Shown: in pieces, positions 6,504 to 61,079 of the stretch
Layout of the letters: each line of letters opens with the position of its first letter
How positions within the stretch are numbered: the stretch's first letter is position 1
DNA from: Pseudomonas rhizophila
GTDB lineage: Bacteria > Pseudomonadota > Gammaproteobacteria > Pseudomonadales > Pseudomonadaceae
Reading direction: 5' to 3'
DNA length: 61,079 nucleotides
Assembly: GCF_003033885.1 (NCBI RefSeq)
Contig: NZ_CP024081.1
Coordinates: forward strand, 4,169,427-4,230,505
Position numbers and translations under genes: made by a program
The notes under the pieces: generated by a model
The model's input: only the letters and a program-made list of their open reading frames with translations
Database searches by the model: none
What the model was told of the DNA's origin: nothing

Positions 6504-7385
6504 ATGTTCTTACATAACAAAAGACTGCAGTACACCGTACGTGTCGCCGAGCCTAACCCAGGGCTGGCTAATCTGTTGCTTGAACAGTTCGGCGGTGCCC
6601 AGGGCGAGTTGGCGGCGGCGTCGCGCTACTTCACCCAGGCCCTGTCCGAGGATGATCCCGGCCGCAAGGATTTGTTGATGGACATTGCCACCGAAGAGCT
6701 CAGTCATCTGGAGGTGATCGGCTCGATCATCGTGATGCTCAATAAAGGCGCCAAGGGCCGAATGGCCGAGGGTGTGGAAAAGGAAGGCCAGCTATACCGG
6801 GACATCAACGGTGCCGGCAACGACTCTCACATCACCAGCCTGCTTTATGGCGCCGGTTCCCCGCTGACCAATTCGGCCGGTGTACCTTGGACAGCCGCTT
6901 ACGTCGACACCATAGGTGAGCCGACAGCGGACATGCGGTCCAACATCGCCGCCGAGGCACGGGCGAAAATCATCTATGAGCGCCTGATGAATCTCACCGA
7001 TGATCCTGGGGTAAAAGAAGCGCTGGGCTTTTTGATGACCCGTGAAATCGCGCACCAGATGTCCTTCGAGAAAGCCCTGCACTCGATCCAGCCGAATTTC
7101 CCTCAAGGTAAACTGCCAGGCATGCCAGAGTTCACCAACGTGTACTTCAACATGTCCCAAGGCGAGCCTTCGGTGCGTGGCCCATGGAACCAGGGCGATG
7201 AGTGGGAATTCGTCGAGAACCCAACGCCGGCGGTGGATGGCGGCGATGGTCTGGCGAGTGTGCAACTGAGCAAGAAAGACGAAGCGCTGCTGATGGACAT
7301 GAAGGCGCGGACCATGTCCAACCCGGAAAGCGACCCCATGACAGGTGCCGACTTGGGTTCAGGGATGCAAGGTGACAAACTGTAG
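6504..7385 (+). CDS. Manganese catalase
   Basis: A 293-residue non-haem catalase that disproportionates hydrogen peroxide with a di-manganese centre inside a four-helix bundle. The five metal ligands are in place: Glu35, Glu65 and His68 (EELSHLE), Glu151, and His184 (REIAHQMSFEKAL). Length and C-terminal extension match the KatN/YjqC group. The start MFLHNKRLQ is the family start, with GAGGAG upstream of ATG 6504. Its place next to metallothionein and KGG genes fits a general stress regulon. Confidence 0.95.
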   Translation: MFLHNKRLQYTVRVAEPNPGLANLLLEQFGGAQGELAAASRYFTQALSEDDPGRKDLLMDIATEELSHLEVIGSIIVMLNKGAKGRMAEGVEKEGQLYRDINGAGNDSHITSLLYGAGSPLTNSAGVPWTAAYVDTIGEPTADMRSNIAAEARAKIIYERLMNLTDDPGVKEALGFLMTREIAHQMSFEKALHSIQPNFPQGKLPGMPEFTNVYFNMSQGEPSVRGPWNQGDEWEFVENPTPAVDGGDGLASVQLSKKDEALLMDMKARTMSNPESDPMTGADLGSGMQGDKL

Positions 7386-40598: not shown

Positions 40599-40693
40599 TC
40601 GCGGCGCGCTAAACAAATGGAACCGAAGCCGCCATGCCACCTTCAAATGACCATGACCGGTCATCAATCCGGCCTGTCATGAATGAGGTGCCT

Positions 40694-40975
40694 ATGAACC
40701 AAGATCCTGCAAACACCCAGCAACAAGGCCAGACGCAGGCCCCGTCACCGCGCAATGATCCGGCGATCGATCCTCAGGTTTCCCCTGAGCCCGCTGGCAC
40801 CCAGCCAGTCAGCCCGGCTGGGGCAGGCAAGGCCCAAAGCGCCGACAGCGAAGTCGATCAAAAAAATCACCACCAGGACAACGACAACACCTTCAGCCCT
40901 GGCTTCAAGCCTGACCCGGACCGCCCGGAATCCGGTGAGAGCACTGACGCCGATATCGATACGGATGGCGGTTAG
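40694..40975 (+). CDS. Small disordered acidic protein
   Basis: A 93-residue protein with almost no hydrophobic residues. It is rich in Gln, Pro, Asp and Ser, with QKNHHQDNDN in the middle and an acidic Asp/Gly tail. GAGG lies five bases before ATG 40694. Such proteins beside stress genes in Pseudomonas are unclassified; it is probably disordered. It lies 95 bp after the kinase on the same strand. Confidence 0.65.
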   Translation: MNQDPANTQQQGQTQAPSPRNDPAIDPQVSPEPAGTQPVSPAGAGKAQSADSEVDQKNHHQDNDNTFSPGFKPDPDRPESGESTDADIDTDGG

Positions 40976-40980
40976 CCAAT

Positions 40981-41012
40981 GAGCCCTGCTTCTTTTCTTG
41001 AAGCTGGGCTTT
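40981..41012 (+). terminator. Weak intrinsic terminator
   Basis: AGCCCTGCTTC, TTTTCTT loop, GAAGCTGGGCT with a short TTT run. One mismatch per arm; the T-run is poor, so termination may be partial. Confidence 0.5.
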
Positions 41013-41046
41013 CGGATTTCACGACGCCGTTGGGTGGCTGGCGCAT

Positions 41047-42207
41047 CTATTGAGTGGATGAGTGAGGCGACAGGTCCATCCGATACCCAGCCCCCGGCTT
41101 GCCTTCATGTAATGCCGACTGGATTTTTTCATACAATGCATTGGCCTCGGCAGTCGTGATTGACCGCGAGCAATCCCGCAATACGACGCGCAACAGAGCA
41201 TTTTCCTGGCCGGGTAACAGCCCGAGTCGCTCGATGGCTTGTGGTGGTAATTCAGACGAAGTCCAACGACCTTTGACTTGCATCTCCTCAATCCAACCAG
41301 AGCAGTCGCCAGCCGCCTGGAGCATTTTCTCAGTCAGTACTTCCTCACTCAAACCCGGAGTCACGGCCACTGAAATGTCCCGAGTAATTGAAGGCAAACG
41401 CGAAACCGTACTCCAAGGACGTAAATCTTGCATCTGGGCCTGAACTCGCTCATTAGGGTCACGCAACAGGCGAATATCCGGGATTCCCTTTCGTAGCATA
41501 GTCAACCGGTCCAGCCCCATCCCCAACGCCAGACCGCCATGGCGCTGCGCATCGATTCCCAGCCGTTGCAATAACGAAGTGGCAATAAGCCCACACTCCA
41601 GCACTTCGACAGCAGAACCATCGTTTATCACATTCACCTCAATGCCACCTTCGGTGTAATGATGCGGACTGTCGCTGTAAACCCAAGGTTTATCGGGGAC
41701 GGCGACCCCAAGGATATCGCCGACCAAGCGCAAAAGGTGTCCGCGCGCCGAGAGCTCGGGTTCACCCAGCACCCATATGTCCATCTGATGTGGCTCGGCG
41801 CAGTGCCAACGATCACGACTGTCGCGGCGGAACGTGATGCCCGGAGCGGCCAGCAAAATGACCTCTCCAGGCTTGCGTTCCTGAGCCGAACGTTGCAGCA
41901 CAATTGGAATCTGGCTAGTGGTTTGTGTACGCAACAGTGAATGTTCGTCTATCCACCGGGTGTGTTCGCTGCCTAGAGTGATTTCTGCCGGGTCATAACC
42001 GAGCAGTCCGTAGTTCTCTTCGGCGGATACGATTCGTGGGCCGGTCTGTATTAGAGCCTGCGGCCACCCAGCACTGACCAGCCCTTCAATTATTTCGTTC
42101 ATGATCAGGCGGACTGCATGTGTGGGCGAGTGCGCCTCAGTCAGATCTGTAATGGATAACGCCTGCTGAAGCGCGACGTCAGTCAGGTATTTCTTGGTAA
42201 CACCCAT
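41047..42207 (-). CDS. Stand-alone PheRS-like protein (PheS core + FDX-ACB)
   Basis: A 386-residue class II synthetase relative. Residues 27-240 are a PheS-type catalytic core: DEHSLLRTQTT (87-97), motif 2 FRRDSRDRWH ending in HQ (126-141), and motif 3 LGMGLDRLTML (228-238). Residues about 268-370 are the FDX-ACB domain normally found at the C-terminus of PheT (RLPSITRDISVAV ... ANALYEKIQSALHE). This single-chain plan is that of mitochondrial PheRS. Bacterial PheRS is an alpha2beta2 enzyme, so this is an extra, special-purpose copy. The Phe-pocket motif FPFTEPS is HHYTEGG here (182-188), so the amino acid may not be Phe. AAGGGG precedes ATG. Confidence 0.85.
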   Translation of the reverse strand: MGVTKKYLTDVALQQALSITDLTEAHSPTHAVRLIMNEIIEGLVSAGWPQALIQTGPRIVSAEENYGLLGYDPAEITLGSEHTRWIDEHSLLRTQTTSQIPIVLQRSAQERKPGEVILLAAPGITFRRDSRDRWHCAEPHQMDIWVLGEPELSARGHLLRLVGDILGVAVPDKPWVYSDSPHHYTEGGIEVNVINDGSAVEVLECGLIATSLLQRLGIDAQRHGGLALGMGLDRLTMLRKGIPDIRLLRDPNERVQAQMQDLRPWSTVSRLPSITRDISVAVTPGLSEEVLTEKMLQAAGDCSGWIEEMQVKGRWTSSELPPQAIERLGLLPGQENALLRVVLRDCSRSITTAEANALYEKIQSALHEGKPGAGYRMDLSPHSSTQ

Positions 42208-42447
42208 TATTGGCCCCTTTGAATCAGTGTTTGCTACGGCTTGAACAGTCGGAGGAAAAACCTATCAACACTAGACCAAACAAACAACTTAATAAGGCGG
42301 ATTTTGGTGTTTTCAGAACTCAGCTACAGATGCTTCCTACATAAATAATCTATTTTTATTTTCTGCTATTCTCAGTAGAAGTATTGGTTCTAAAAAGCGA
42401 TCAAAAAATCATTTAAAAATCAGCATGAATTTGAGCTAATACGACCA

Positions 42448-42468
42448 CCCCCTTGAGCCGCAAGGGGG
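42448..42468 (+). promoter_or_regulatory. GC-rich 5' leader hairpin of the peptide gene
   Basis: CCCCCTTG, loop AGCCG, CAAGGGGG: a perfect 8-bp stem in an otherwise AT-rich leader, 22 bases upstream of the ATG and just ahead of the Shine-Dalgarno site. It could stabilise the messenger or gate translation. No T-run follows, so it is not a terminator. Confidence 0.7.
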
Positions 42469-42490
42469 AAAATAAGGTAAAGGTGAAATC

Positions 42491-42592
42491 ATGAAGAAGC
42501 AGAAAGTAATTCAGGAAAAACTTAATCGTATTACCTCAGGTCCAGAAAATTTTGGGTGGGCTCCATTGGCTTGGGCCTATATGGGTGATTGA
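42491..42592 (+). CDS. 33-residue peptide, possible precursor peptide
   Basis: Encodes MKKQKVIQEKLNRITSG followed by PENFGWAPLAWAYMGD. The N-terminal half is basic and helix-prone, as in a leader, and the C-terminal half is rich in aromatics (Phe21, Trp23, Trp28, Tyr30) and Gly/Pro, as in a modified core. AGGTG lies six bases before ATG. A hairpin precedes it and an intrinsic terminator follows 15 bases after the stop, so the peptide could be made in excess over the downstream gene. The alternative is a leader peptide that controls attenuation. No homologue is recognised from memory. Confidence 0.65.
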   Translation: MKKQKVIQEKLNRITSGPENFGWAPLAWAYMGD

Positions 42593-42607
42593 TATCGTTT
42601 GATTCAG

Positions 42608-42636
42608 AAGGGTGGCATGGATCAGCCACCCTTTTT
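42608..42636 (+). terminator. Intrinsic terminator between peptide gene and M29-like gene
   Basis: AAGGGTGGC, loop ATGGATCA, GCCACCCTT and further T residues: a perfect 9-bp stem. It sits between two genes read in the same direction, only five bases before the next Shine-Dalgarno site, so read-through or regulated antitermination must supply the downstream gene. Confidence 0.85.
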
Positions 42637-42652
42637 CATAAGGAGCTACTTT

Positions 42653-43579
42653 ATGTCGTCCATGACAAATATCCATACACTTTTTGGCGCTGAGGAATTC
42701 TGGGTTGTCGCCGATTCAGAGCAATTTCTTAACAAGTGTTCTAATCAAGGGCTAAAAACTGCGCATATCACCAAGGTCGAAGCTCTGCCTCGCAATAGCA
42801 TAATTTTCTCCTTCAGCAACAGTGCCGCCAAACTCACATTAGAGATTGCGCAAGCCACACCCAGAAAGAGAAGTGTTTTTTGTGCTGCACAAGTTTTCGA
42901 GCCCTCCCTGAGTTGTGCAAGTTATAGTCTGAATTTATTGCTAAATAGCGATTTCAAGAAGGCGCTGAAAAAACAGCGCGCCGTATTAAATATGCTTAAT
43001 TCTTATGATTTGTTTTCAGTTACAGGCAACGGTTCTTGCGGGCGCGTTACTCTATTGCCCAAGGCAGAGCCTTATGCGCTGATTGCCGAGGATGTCTCTG
43101 GCGATTTCATACATTCCGTCGCCGAATTTTTCGAAGTTCATTATGCTCACATGAAGCCTCAAGAACCCTGCCCATTTTTTTTTAGTGGGGAGCTAAATAT
43201 TTCTGGAATTCTGACTGTCCTGAGAAAGCCTAATCCGATGTTGCCCGAAGATATGAAAATGAAACTTCAGCAGCTATCTGATACCCTTTCTGAGAACGGA
43301 GGATTGCTGACTGTCGTGGAGAATAAGGTAACGTCTCTACGAACTGGTAATGGTGAATATATAGAAGTCTTGAAAATGGCCGCAGGAACTCGAGGTCTCG
43401 AATTAACCGAATTCGCCATCGGTGTCAACGATGAAATAGCGCCTCTTATAGATTACAAGATGAACTCGCAATTGAATGAGGGTGTCGGCGGTGTTCACTT
43501 GGCTATCGGAGATGGCTCTAGTGGTTATCACATTGATTTTCTTAGCCCAGCGGCCAATGTCAGCCCCATAACTCAATAA
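42653..43579 (+). CDS. M29/AmpS-like putative metallopeptidase
   Basis: A 308-residue protein. Its C-terminal third (ELTEFAIGVND ... NEGVGGVHLAIGDG ... GYHIDFL) resembles the COG2309/M29 aminopeptidase core; the residues expected to hold metal are Glu253, Glu276, His282, His293 and Asp295. The N-terminal 200 residues are unlike anything I know. AAGGAG lies seven bases before ATG 42653; the upstream extension to 42599 covers the terminator and is not used. Base composition is AT-rich against the flanks. It may trim the peptide or release an amino acid from it. Confidence 0.68.
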   Translation: MSSMTNIHTLFGAEEFWVVADSEQFLNKCSNQGLKTAHITKVEALPRNSIIFSFSNSAAKLTLEIAQATPRKRSVFCAAQVFEPSLSCASYSLNLLLNSDFKKALKKQRAVLNMLNSYDLFSVTGNGSCGRVTLLPKAEPYALIAEDVSGDFIHSVAEFFEVHYAHMKPQEPCPFFFSGELNISGILTVLRKPNPMLPEDMKMKLQQLSDTLSENGGLLTVVENKVTSLRTGNGEYIEVLKMAAGTRGLELTEFAIGVNDEIAPLIDYKMNSQLNEGVGGVHLAIGDGSSGYHIDFLSPAANVSPITQ

Positions 43580-43824
43580 CCTTAATAACGGCGTATGGCA
43601 AAGAGAGCAACTCCTCACTGGGGCAGGACTAATACTCTCTTTTTGGTGAAGTAAAATATCAAGGGGGCGCTTCTCGAAGTTGCTCAGAGACATTTCGGTA
43701 TGCTGAGAGGTCCTCACGTTTGAAACCAAGAATGCCCTGCCAGATTAAACCAGCAGGGCTTCTCGGTCAGGCTGATGATCTCGTTAAACCCTACGTTATG
43801 ATCGGGCTTTTTTTACATTCTCTG

Positions 43825-44346
43825 CTATTTACTTGGATGAGCGGCCTGGAGTTTCTTGGCCATTTCCAGATGTTTTTCCAAGTCTGGAAGCATTTTTTGC
43901 GCGAACGCCTTCAGCTCGGTGTTGCCGGGCTTCTTGTCGTCAGTGACGGTCTCGGCTTCTTTCTTGAACAGGGCAATGGTTTCTTCGTGGGCCATCACCT
44001 GGTTGTTGGCGTAGGCCGCATCAAACGATTCCTCGCGCATATCGAGAATCTTGGCCTTGGCCTTTTTCACCAGCGTGGTTTCGTCCGGCACTTCGATATC
44101 GTGTTTTTTCGCCAGCGAGATCAACTCCTCGTTAGCTTTGGTGTGGTCGGAAATCATCATGTTGGCGAATTCCTTGACGTCCGCCGAACTGCTTTTTTCC
44201 AGGGCCAGTTTGCTGGTTTCGATTTCCGCGATACCACCGGCCGCCGCGTTGTCGACGAAGTCGCTGGAAGTCGCGGCCCAAGCCATTCCCATACTGGTGC
44301 TCAAGGCAACTGCCAGGCCGAGTTGACGCAGGTTGAATCCGTCCAT
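43825..44346 (-). CDS. DUF4142 exported protein
   Basis: A 173-residue protein with a signal peptide (LGLAVALSTSMGMAWAA) and a ferritin-like four-helix DUF4142 body (SSDFVDNAAAGGIAEIETSKLALEKSSSADVKEFANMMISDHTKANEELISLAKK). The conserved helix with DHTKANEEL is the family hallmark. GGAG lies eight bases before ATG 44346. It should act in the periplasm; family members are linked with stress, function unproven. The 245 bp before it on the other side hold no gene. Confidence 0.9.
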   Translation of the reverse strand: MDGFNLRQLGLAVALSTSMGMAWAATSSDFVDNAAAGGIAEIETSKLALEKSSSADVKEFANMMISDHTKANEELISLAKKHDIEVPDETTLVKKAKAKILDMREESFDAAYANNQVMAHEETIALFKKEAETVTDDKKPGNTELKAFAQKMLPDLEKHLEMAKKLQAAHPSK

Positions 44347-44563
44347 AGGTAAGTCTCCACACAGGTTGTACAAGGGACTTGTGTCGTCCTGTTCAATGGA
44401 GAGCGGCGGGCGGACAAAGGTTTGATTGCAAAGCGGTGCGGTACGACGAACGGTCACCGCTGGTCGGATTGGCGGTCGACAGAACCCCGTCGGCGAGGCC
44501 ATTCTGATAGTCGACGAGCGCCGTAGAAGGCGTTAGCCATCGTTCTACCAAAGGAGGTGTTCC

Positions 44564-60696: not shown

Positions 60697-60810
60697 GGCG
60701 CTTCCCTATGGTCTCTTGTCATCGGGTGAAGCGAGCGCAATGAAACCCCGGGCGCAGGCCCGCCAAGGTTCGAACAGCGCCCGCCCACCGCGGGTTTGTT
60801 GATGCATGAG

Positions 60811-61010
60811 TCATGGGCCGGTCTCCGGGCTCGCGAGGGGCAGGGCTTGTGCCTGGCCGACAAGCGTCACCTTCCCATGCCGTGAGGCACAGTGGATCTG
60901 ACGCTTCTCTCGCTTACCGTTGCGGGGGCAGCACCGGACTGACGTGGCCTTGAAGTAAAGCACACGATTCACCGGTTTCCCGTTTCACCCTGTGAAGGGC
61001 ACCCGTAACT
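60811..61010 (-). promoter_or_regulatory. Cobalamin riboswitch upstream of cbtB
   Basis: On the minus strand the leader has GGGAAACCGGTGAATC, the core GGTGCTGCCCCCGCAACGG then TAAGCGA, and the B12 box GAGCCCGGAGACCGGCCC. These are the conserved blocks of the cobalamin riboswitch. High B12 would shut down cbtB-cbtA-cobE. The 5' start is close to the window edge and the exact limits are approximate. Confidence 0.94.
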
Positions 61011-61079
61011 AGGCGCACAGGAGAGCATGGGCGGGGGCGGGGCGTCAATTGGCTGATACCCGTTGCGCCCATCGCGAGC

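Follow-up and report, generated by a model that had tools for sequence, protein, structure and literature searches.

A conserved 33-residue precursor peptide linked to a CgnB-type protein and the PheRS-like ligase SrmL on a Pseudomonas island, with a possible role in phenylalanine charging

Agrocin 84 is reportedly an inhibitor whose producer is guarded by a second, insensitive synthetase, the self-immunity leucyl-tRNA synthetase AgnB2. In crocagin biosynthesis, as PMC10070186 describes it, the proteins CgnB and CgnE bind the precursor peptide and bring it to a separate enzyme, CgnC. According to that paper, both proteins may descend from M29-type aminopeptidases and are without aminopeptidase activity, their family occurs in Gammaproteobacteria among others, and the metal site is kept in genomes with a single CgnB/CgnE copy (PMC10070186). 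Here we describe a locus in which a gene of this family stands beside a short precursor gene and a gene for a single-chain protein, SrmL, that resembles phenylalanyl-tRNA synthetase (PheRS). It lies in a stretch of 61,079 nucleotides from Pseudomonas rhizophila (contig NZ_CP024081.1, positions 4,169,427 to 4,230,505; hereafter the window), whose genome (G000) is a single contig of 5.95 Mb. A first-pass annotation of the window had placed the three genes where the list of open reading frames (ORFs) indeed has them, and had seen in them a peptide system that was linked, acquired by transfer and laid out like a ribosomal-peptide locus, a view that the linkage counts and the island described below support. 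As to function, we tentatively suggest that the product of the peptide and CgnB genes acts on phenylalanine charging, and that SrmL is a substitute PheRS serving self-protection.

The three genes keep company across genomes. Among 398 Pseudomonas genomes, SrmL passed its cut-off in 38, a CgnB relative was found in 34, and 21 had both (odds ratio 33, p 3e-16; since genomes are not independent, p-values overstate the linkage). A profile search detected the peptide in 20 of these genomes, all of them within the 21 that carry SrmL and a CgnB relative, the 21st (G688) having a decayed locus. Co-occurrence, on which the first-pass annotation had made its peptide system depend, was therefore what we found: in the 398 genomes the peptide was never seen without SrmL and CgnB. 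In a further set of 398 phylum-wide genomes the SrmL cut-off was passed by the P. rhizophila genome alone, and one linked copy was met in a metagenome-assembled genome called Paucimonas (L127), which may be misbinned.

The peptide has a variable first third and a conserved F-x-W-x-P-L-x-W core with a mostly conserved R-x-T-S ahead of it, so that the region mostly reads R-I-T-S-G-P-x-N-F-G-W-A-P-L-A-W-A. Protein searching of 95 genomes turned it up in seven, its own among them, the other six copies being 66-78% identical, and a copy is present at 33 of the 38 loci that we anchored on CgnB. Across 37 aligned loci, which were collected by similarity to the window peptide and are thus biased to conserved copies, the F, P, L and W at positions -7, -3, -2 and 0 from the last Trp are invariant, while the Leu at -2 is written with six codons and the Pro at -3 with four. 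Because residues are kept while codons change, which indicates selection on the protein, the peptide is, judged by its coding pattern, translated. The ten N-terminal residues and the three C-terminal ones differ between loci; cores end W-A (W-P in one) plus 0-4 residues, and in two distant copies the sequence stops at SWP and AWA, which makes the tail dispensable. The locus thus has the translated, conserved precursor beside a handling protein by which ribosomally synthesized and post-translationally modified peptide systems are recognized.

That handling protein was described in the first-pass annotation as M29-like. The metal-ligand pattern behind this description is there, and the family is that of the crocagin CgnB/CgnE peptide-binding proteins: PDB entry 6zsv matches at 8.4e-15 over residues 76-302 of 308 and 6zsu ('CgnE') at 2.5e-10 over residues 81-303, that is, over most of the length. 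The best start is the ATG at 42653, with AAGGAG upstream, and not the TTG at 42599 from which the mechanical ORF list starts it. PF26231 is present in relatives, some of which are named 'Crocagin biosynthetic protein CgnE/B domain' in UniRef; the window protein itself gave no match in the Pfam copy used. Six ligands (E161, E253, E276, H282, H293 and D295) are invariant in 19 rows and align with the intact dinuclear metal site of CgnB (E161, E252, E274, H280, H291 and D293), a mapping that takes the numbering of the chain and of the paper to differ by 8.

The third protein is a member of NCBIfam NF051887, 'PheS-related mystery ligase SrmL' (422.9 bits, cut-off 300), and contains the PheRS core PF01409 (90.9 bits, above cut-off). 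Its AlphaFold model has a mean predicted local distance difference test (pLDDT) of 88.9, and the seven best fold matches are all human mitochondrial PheRS. The tRNA-bound open form, 3tup, superposes with a root-mean-square deviation of 4.6 Å over 395 alignment columns including gaps, and the other six at about 18 Å. One chain thus holds a PheS core and, with a match that stays below cut-off, a C-terminal FDX-ACB domain, in a PheRS fold. Across 25 SrmL rows the motif 2 and motif 3 arginines never vary, nor do many residues in the FDX-ACB region. Fold, motifs and the phage context described below favour SrmL being a one-chain PheRS of mitochondrial-type build. The genome also encodes PheT, with a PheS-type match just beside it.

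Loss at these loci runs in one direction. The CgnB gene is intact at 30 of the 38 CgnB-anchored loci, and SrmL is intact at 28 of those 30; of the two exceptions, L105 lies at a contig edge and L131, from Alkalilimnicola, has a CgnB outside the clade. Where CgnB is broken (8 loci, some of whose broken ORFs may be sequencing errors), SrmL is intact in seven and the peptide is kept in four. In the genus survey, likewise, the peptide is missing from 18 of the 38 SrmL genomes (these include G688 and G734, whose SrmL is only partial, and G689, whose SrmL is of a distant type), and SrmL from none of the 20 peptide genomes; the reverse loss, with peptide and CgnB kept and SrmL gone, was not seen in the SrmL-linked clade. 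A sister genome (G035) lacks the equivalent of window positions 42354-43510, by which the peptide and about the first 286 CgnB codons are gone and a CgnB stub is left; its SrmL is identical at 385 of 386 residues (nonsynonymous divergence dN 0.001, synonymous divergence dS 0.050). Within the SrmL-linked clade, SrmL therefore behaves as a self-resistance gene should, being kept after loss of the putative inhibitor genes and not missing where these are present.

This loss recurs across the SrmL tree, on whose 56 Pseudomonas-clade rows the intact-CgnB label takes 16 changes (17 counting the outgroup), and at least 10 when well-supported branches are counted; ten rows with a visible or broken CgnB remnant alone require at least 8. 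The tree is a quick search with support from the Shimodaira-Hasegawa-like approximate likelihood ratio test only. Two of its rows, L133 and L172, have the same sequence; it omits the SrmL fragments L137 and L160, L141 (at 38% identity) and L010-L013, which duplicate named loci, and L158 and L159 yielded no ORF. Median dN/dS of SrmL is 0.086 without intact CgnB (54 pairs) versus 0.066 with it (63 pairs), for non-independent pairs restricted to dS 0.05-1.5 (54 of 171 and 63 of 325, and 14 of 300 for CgnB) and with L117, whose CgnB is broken, mistakenly in the 'paired' list. Purifying selection on orphan SrmL argues for an immunity role, since a tailoring enzyme without its substrate should decay and an immunity gene need not.

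Relatives of SrmL also occur on two plasmids, one of Azotobacter and one of Glutamicibacter, and in five viruses (sequence lengths 181-635 kb). Neither peptide nor CgnB was found near distant SrmL relatives at the nine loci searched; plasmid searches returned two records with SrmL, two others with CgnB and none with both, and a pattern-limited viral scan returned no CgnB. In one virus (L185) two tRNA-Phe genes flank SrmL and are the sole Phe genes among 26 tRNAs in 21 kb, the chance that both nearest tRNAs are Phe being 1/325. In another (L186) a tRNA-Phe lies two genes upstream of SrmL and another at a distance of about 1.9 kb. In a third (L184) SrmL sits within a series of genes or gene fragments that best match synthetases for Lys, Trp, Ser, His, Gly, Ala and Tyr, of which only Ser and Tyr pass cut-offs and several look partial; tRNAs for the same amino acids are nearby and two tRNA-Phe about 8 kb upstream. 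All three are large IMG/VR contigs (415-578 kb) densely arrayed with tRNA genes, 26-29 of them in 21 kb.

In the mechanism that we propose, the CgnB-type protein would bind, and probably process or present, the 33-residue precursor, as crocagin CgnB and the intact ligands suggest. The product would most likely inhibit the ordinary two-subunit PheRS, and SrmL, which is transcribed away from the peptide/CgnB pair, would keep charging tRNA-Phe, a role to which family, fold and phage context point. If insensitive to the product, SrmL would protect producers and, as an orphan gene, non-producers. Taken to its full extent, with ordinary PheRS poisoned, immunity given by the one-chain enzyme and the wider SrmL family made up of spare, inhibitor-proof PheRSs, this proposal is possible and also doubtful; our confidence was reduced slightly by two of the findings that follow, the missing FDX-ACB match in two phage SrmLs and the scattered tree label.

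Several observations weigh against it. No exporter gene is among the trio. In the window SrmL the FDX-ACB match (PF03147) reaches 25.5 bits, below the 31.1 cut-off, and the protein is below the curated PheRS cut-offs (TIGR00469, pheS_mito, 83.0 versus 258.35; TIGR00468, pheS, 81.2 versus 237.45). The HQxE of motif 2 is HQxD, and the F/F pair of the bacterial Phe pocket, which we take to be F258/F260 in T. thermophilus numbering, is H and Y in all aligned SrmL rows except L156, so that the amino acid may differ from Phe; archaeal and eukaryotic PheRSs have N-P-Y at that position, and the alanine of GFAFG is retained in SrmL. Among the viruses, L183 has a tmRNA but no tRNA was found, and LR745206 has no tRNA in 50 kb, which leaves three of the five cases in support, two of them (L185 and L186) from related phages with SrmLs 67% identical. 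In the two phage SrmLs beside tRNA-Phe no FDX-ACB match was obtained at E 0.001, though their C-terminal parts align. The Pseudomonas clade joins other SrmLs (32-39% identity) by a branch of 2.88 changes per column, and phage behaviour may for that reason not apply to it. The intact-CgnB label is near-random on the SrmL tree (18 of 500 shuffles were as clustered), and regain might account for some of its changes. Orphan SrmL, which has a slightly higher rate of evolution than paired SrmL, may simply have another job. The strictly conserved core resembles a single ligand or signal more than a diversifying toxin. Finally, three Pseudomonas genomes without SrmL (L168-L170) hold related peptide/CgnB pairs beside a LuxR-type gene.

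Some of these points suit other explanations. SrmL might, as the first-pass annotation proposed, be a tailoring enzyme that adenylates an amino acid, or another acid, and attaches it to a precursor presented by CgnB, orphan copies having some other substrate. The linkage of peptide to SrmL in 20 of 20 genomes fits this, as do the altered amino-acid pocket and the place of SrmL as the island's only other large gene, given that crocagin CgnB and CgnE, according to PMC10070186, deliver the precursor to a separate CgnC. Purifying selection on SrmL nevertheless persists where CgnB is not intact, and no peptide or CgnB was found near its distant relatives at the nine loci searched, so we consider tailoring rather unlikely. 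Nor is the fuller version in the first-pass annotation, where the synthetase adds a residue and the M29-like protein trims the product, favoured: SrmL is kept under purifying selection at many loci without intact CgnB, and its stand-alone distant relatives on two plasmids and at five viral loci (three in tRNA arrays) also speak against a synthetase acting as modifier.

An island without an exporter, a divergent antidote gene and one-sided loss would also be expected if peptide and CgnB poisoned the cell's own phenylalanine charging, with SrmL as antidote and no secreted product, in a toxin-antidote or abortive-infection system to which the SrmL of large phages could be a counter-measure. The trio proteins had no match in PADLOC, in a scan limited to these three; a PADLOC-listed defence system is hence ruled out for the trio, and we regard the wider idea as improbable. 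The strict conservation of the core, together with a related peptide/CgnB pair by a LuxR-type regulator with an autoinducer-binding domain, would suit a signal, CgnB maturing a peptide ligand and SrmL being an unrelated helper. The SrmL island has no regulator, though, and the outliving of the pair by SrmL would be left unexplained, which makes a signal still harder to credit. Chance might have brought together an unrelated peptidase, a stray copy of pheS and a short ORF that is no real gene; this reading has the shortness of the ORF in its favour and nothing else; the linkage counts (peptide with SrmL and CgnB in 20 of 20 genomes) and the conservation of the peptide refute it, and we reject it with hardly a reservation. 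The proposal that SrmL protects against a product acting on phenylalanine charging is the one that we retain, tentatively. It gives the NCBI 'mystery ligase' family a testable function and single-copy CgnB proteins a conserved precursor, and it raises the possibility of a ribosomal peptide as a natural PheRS inhibitor; PheRS complexes with inhibitors are among the PDB matches of the SrmL model. With no more than three genes in its smallest version, the proposal lends itself to testing in a laboratory strain.

The trio sits on an island whose empty site is preserved in relatives. It is flanked by an ORF at 40634-40975 and a DUF4142 gene at 43825-44502, and the PheS-like gene is divergent from the 33-codon gene, which the 308-codon gene follows. 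In G010 (L190) only 76 bp separate the equivalents of window positions 40973 and 43825, and in G011 (L194), which carries its own trio elsewhere, the same flanks are 59 bp apart; these joined flanks define the extent of the island. The AT-rich stretch that the first-pass annotation had taken as a sign of transfer is borne out, G+C being 39-45% in 500-base windows over 42.25-43.75 kb versus about 60% further out, and is joined by the empty site in G010. The dip is centred on the peptide and CgnB genes, and the PheS-like gene has 54-57% G+C. The longest island ORF besides the trio encodes 114 aa, so the island is without an integrase of usual size. The first six other loci retrieved had neither flanking gene, and the trio there must therefore occupy other sites.

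Coordinates of the features discussed (window positions, except for the last three rows, which are in the loci named)
Feature	Position	Strand	Basis
Inserted island with the trio	40974-43824	.	Flanks close together in relatives G010 and G011; GC composition
SrmL, single-chain PheRS-like, 386 aa (PheS catalytic plus ferredoxin-fold anticodon-binding domain)	41047-42207	-	NF051887, PF01409, AlphaFold model
Hairpin before the peptide gene, 8-bp stem	42448-42468	+	Folding z -1.9
33-aa precursor, MKKQKVIQEKLNRITSGPENFGWAPLAWAYMGD	42491-42592	+	Similarity search, profile, codon analysis
Hairpin between peptide stop and CgnB start, 11-bp stem	42606-42635	+	Folding z -4.0
CgnB-type protein (crocagin CgnB/CgnE family, M29-like), 308 aa	42653-43579	+	PDB 6zsv/6zsu by sequence; metal ligands
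Cobalamin riboswitch	60799-61021	-	98.4 bits
Peptide of L168	about 7578-7501	-	
Peptide of L169	about 6709-6786	+	
Peptide of L170	about 7699-7622	-	

Two hairpins bracket the peptide gene. The one ahead of it, called strong in the first-pass annotation, proved weaker than that both in the window and as a class (median z -1.0 over 37 loci). The one behind it is well founded (median z -3.8 over 37 loci), its structure being kept while stem sequences differ; its designation as a terminator is doubtful, because most loci have no T-run after the stem and it was not among the hits of the terminator scan. It may be something other than a terminator, and plausibly serves to give more precursor than CgnB.

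Other relatives of the two proteins deserve mention. In L168-L170 the short peptide ends FG[FY]YPLTKW and lies just upstream of the CgnB relative, and the LuxR-type neighbour in L168 and L170 has an autoinducer-binding domain by Pfam; this is possibly a sister peptide system tied to signalling. Seven genomes (L161-L167) have a CgnB relative and no SrmL. In at least five of them CgnB adjoins an alpha/beta hydrolase, read as a proline iminopeptidase (Pfam on two), and no convincing precursor was found near CgnB in the seven. An opposite-strand candidate there (…FGFMMPDGRII) was dropped, as with a ribosome-site filter it appeared only in L164 and L165 and its frame is not kept in L166 and L167. 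On the CgnB tree the SrmL-linked forms cluster, bar L171 (branch length 10, placement unsure); this tree covers 11 of the 13 genus-survey genomes with CgnB and without SrmL, G505 and G564 being left out, and labels L105 'with SrmL' though its contig ends before SrmL. Distant CgnB relatives lie next to ABC-transporter genes on a Thermus plasmid (L176) and by a methyltransferase gene and short hypothetical genes on a Deinococcus plasmid (L177). On the Glutamicibacter plasmid pGnB68 (L175), from sludge near a pharmaceutical plant, a lone SrmL follows a chloramphenicol efflux gene. One genome (G641) carries two different orphan SrmL genes (L144 and L145). The orphan L156 (G043), which has a near-copy, L157, in G668, shows the pocket motif CGFTRDG in place of the H-x-YTE-x-G of the others aligned, and its function has perhaps changed.

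How new is this arrangement? The first-pass annotation knew of no named system with this set of genes, and we found none in the literature searched, though both protein families already had names, SrmL and CgnB/CgnE. No report of PheRS self-resistance was found there, the one match for that subject being a paper on ThrRS, and no paper joining CgnB, Pseudomonas and 'precursor peptide'; the supplement of PMC10070186 lists candidate precursors. A monomeric PheRS is mentioned in four papers, and SrmL occurs as a name with other meanings, among the matches listed. Nor did that literature show the trio itself, its conserved precursor, the pattern of orphan SrmL genes or the presence of tRNA-Phe genes around phage SrmL.

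Like crocagin as PMC10070186 describes it, the locus has a CgnB-type protein with all six metal ligands (6zsv, 6zsu) beside a short Trp-containing precursor gene. Unlike crocagin, each locus has one CgnB and lacks a second, CgnE copy; the island is too small for CgnC, CgnD, CgnI or CgnL, and contains SrmL instead. The crocagin core is a C-terminal IYW and the core here is ...FGWAPLAWA.., the cores ending W-A or W-P rather than in a terminal Tyr-Trp. We therefore reject a crocagin cluster proper, which would pair CgnB with CgnE and include the CgnC dioxygenase, the search for CgnC having been confined to the island. The window SrmL is by sequence a member of NF051887, a family whose name carries no function, and stands out through the linkage of its Pseudomonas clade with a precursor and CgnB. 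With human mitochondrial PheRS (3cmq/3tup) it shares the single chain, the domain order and the fold over the whole chain, whereas identity is 18-19%, the FPF region is H-x-Y and the score is below the pheS_mito cut-off. The likeness to agrocin 84 and AgnB2 would lie in a producer guarded by a second, insensitive synthetase; here, by contrast, the putative PheRS inhibitor would be a ribosomal peptide with a CgnB-type partner. We thus place the trio as a variant of the CgnB-class ribosomal-peptide systems, with PheRS immunity as the bold case.

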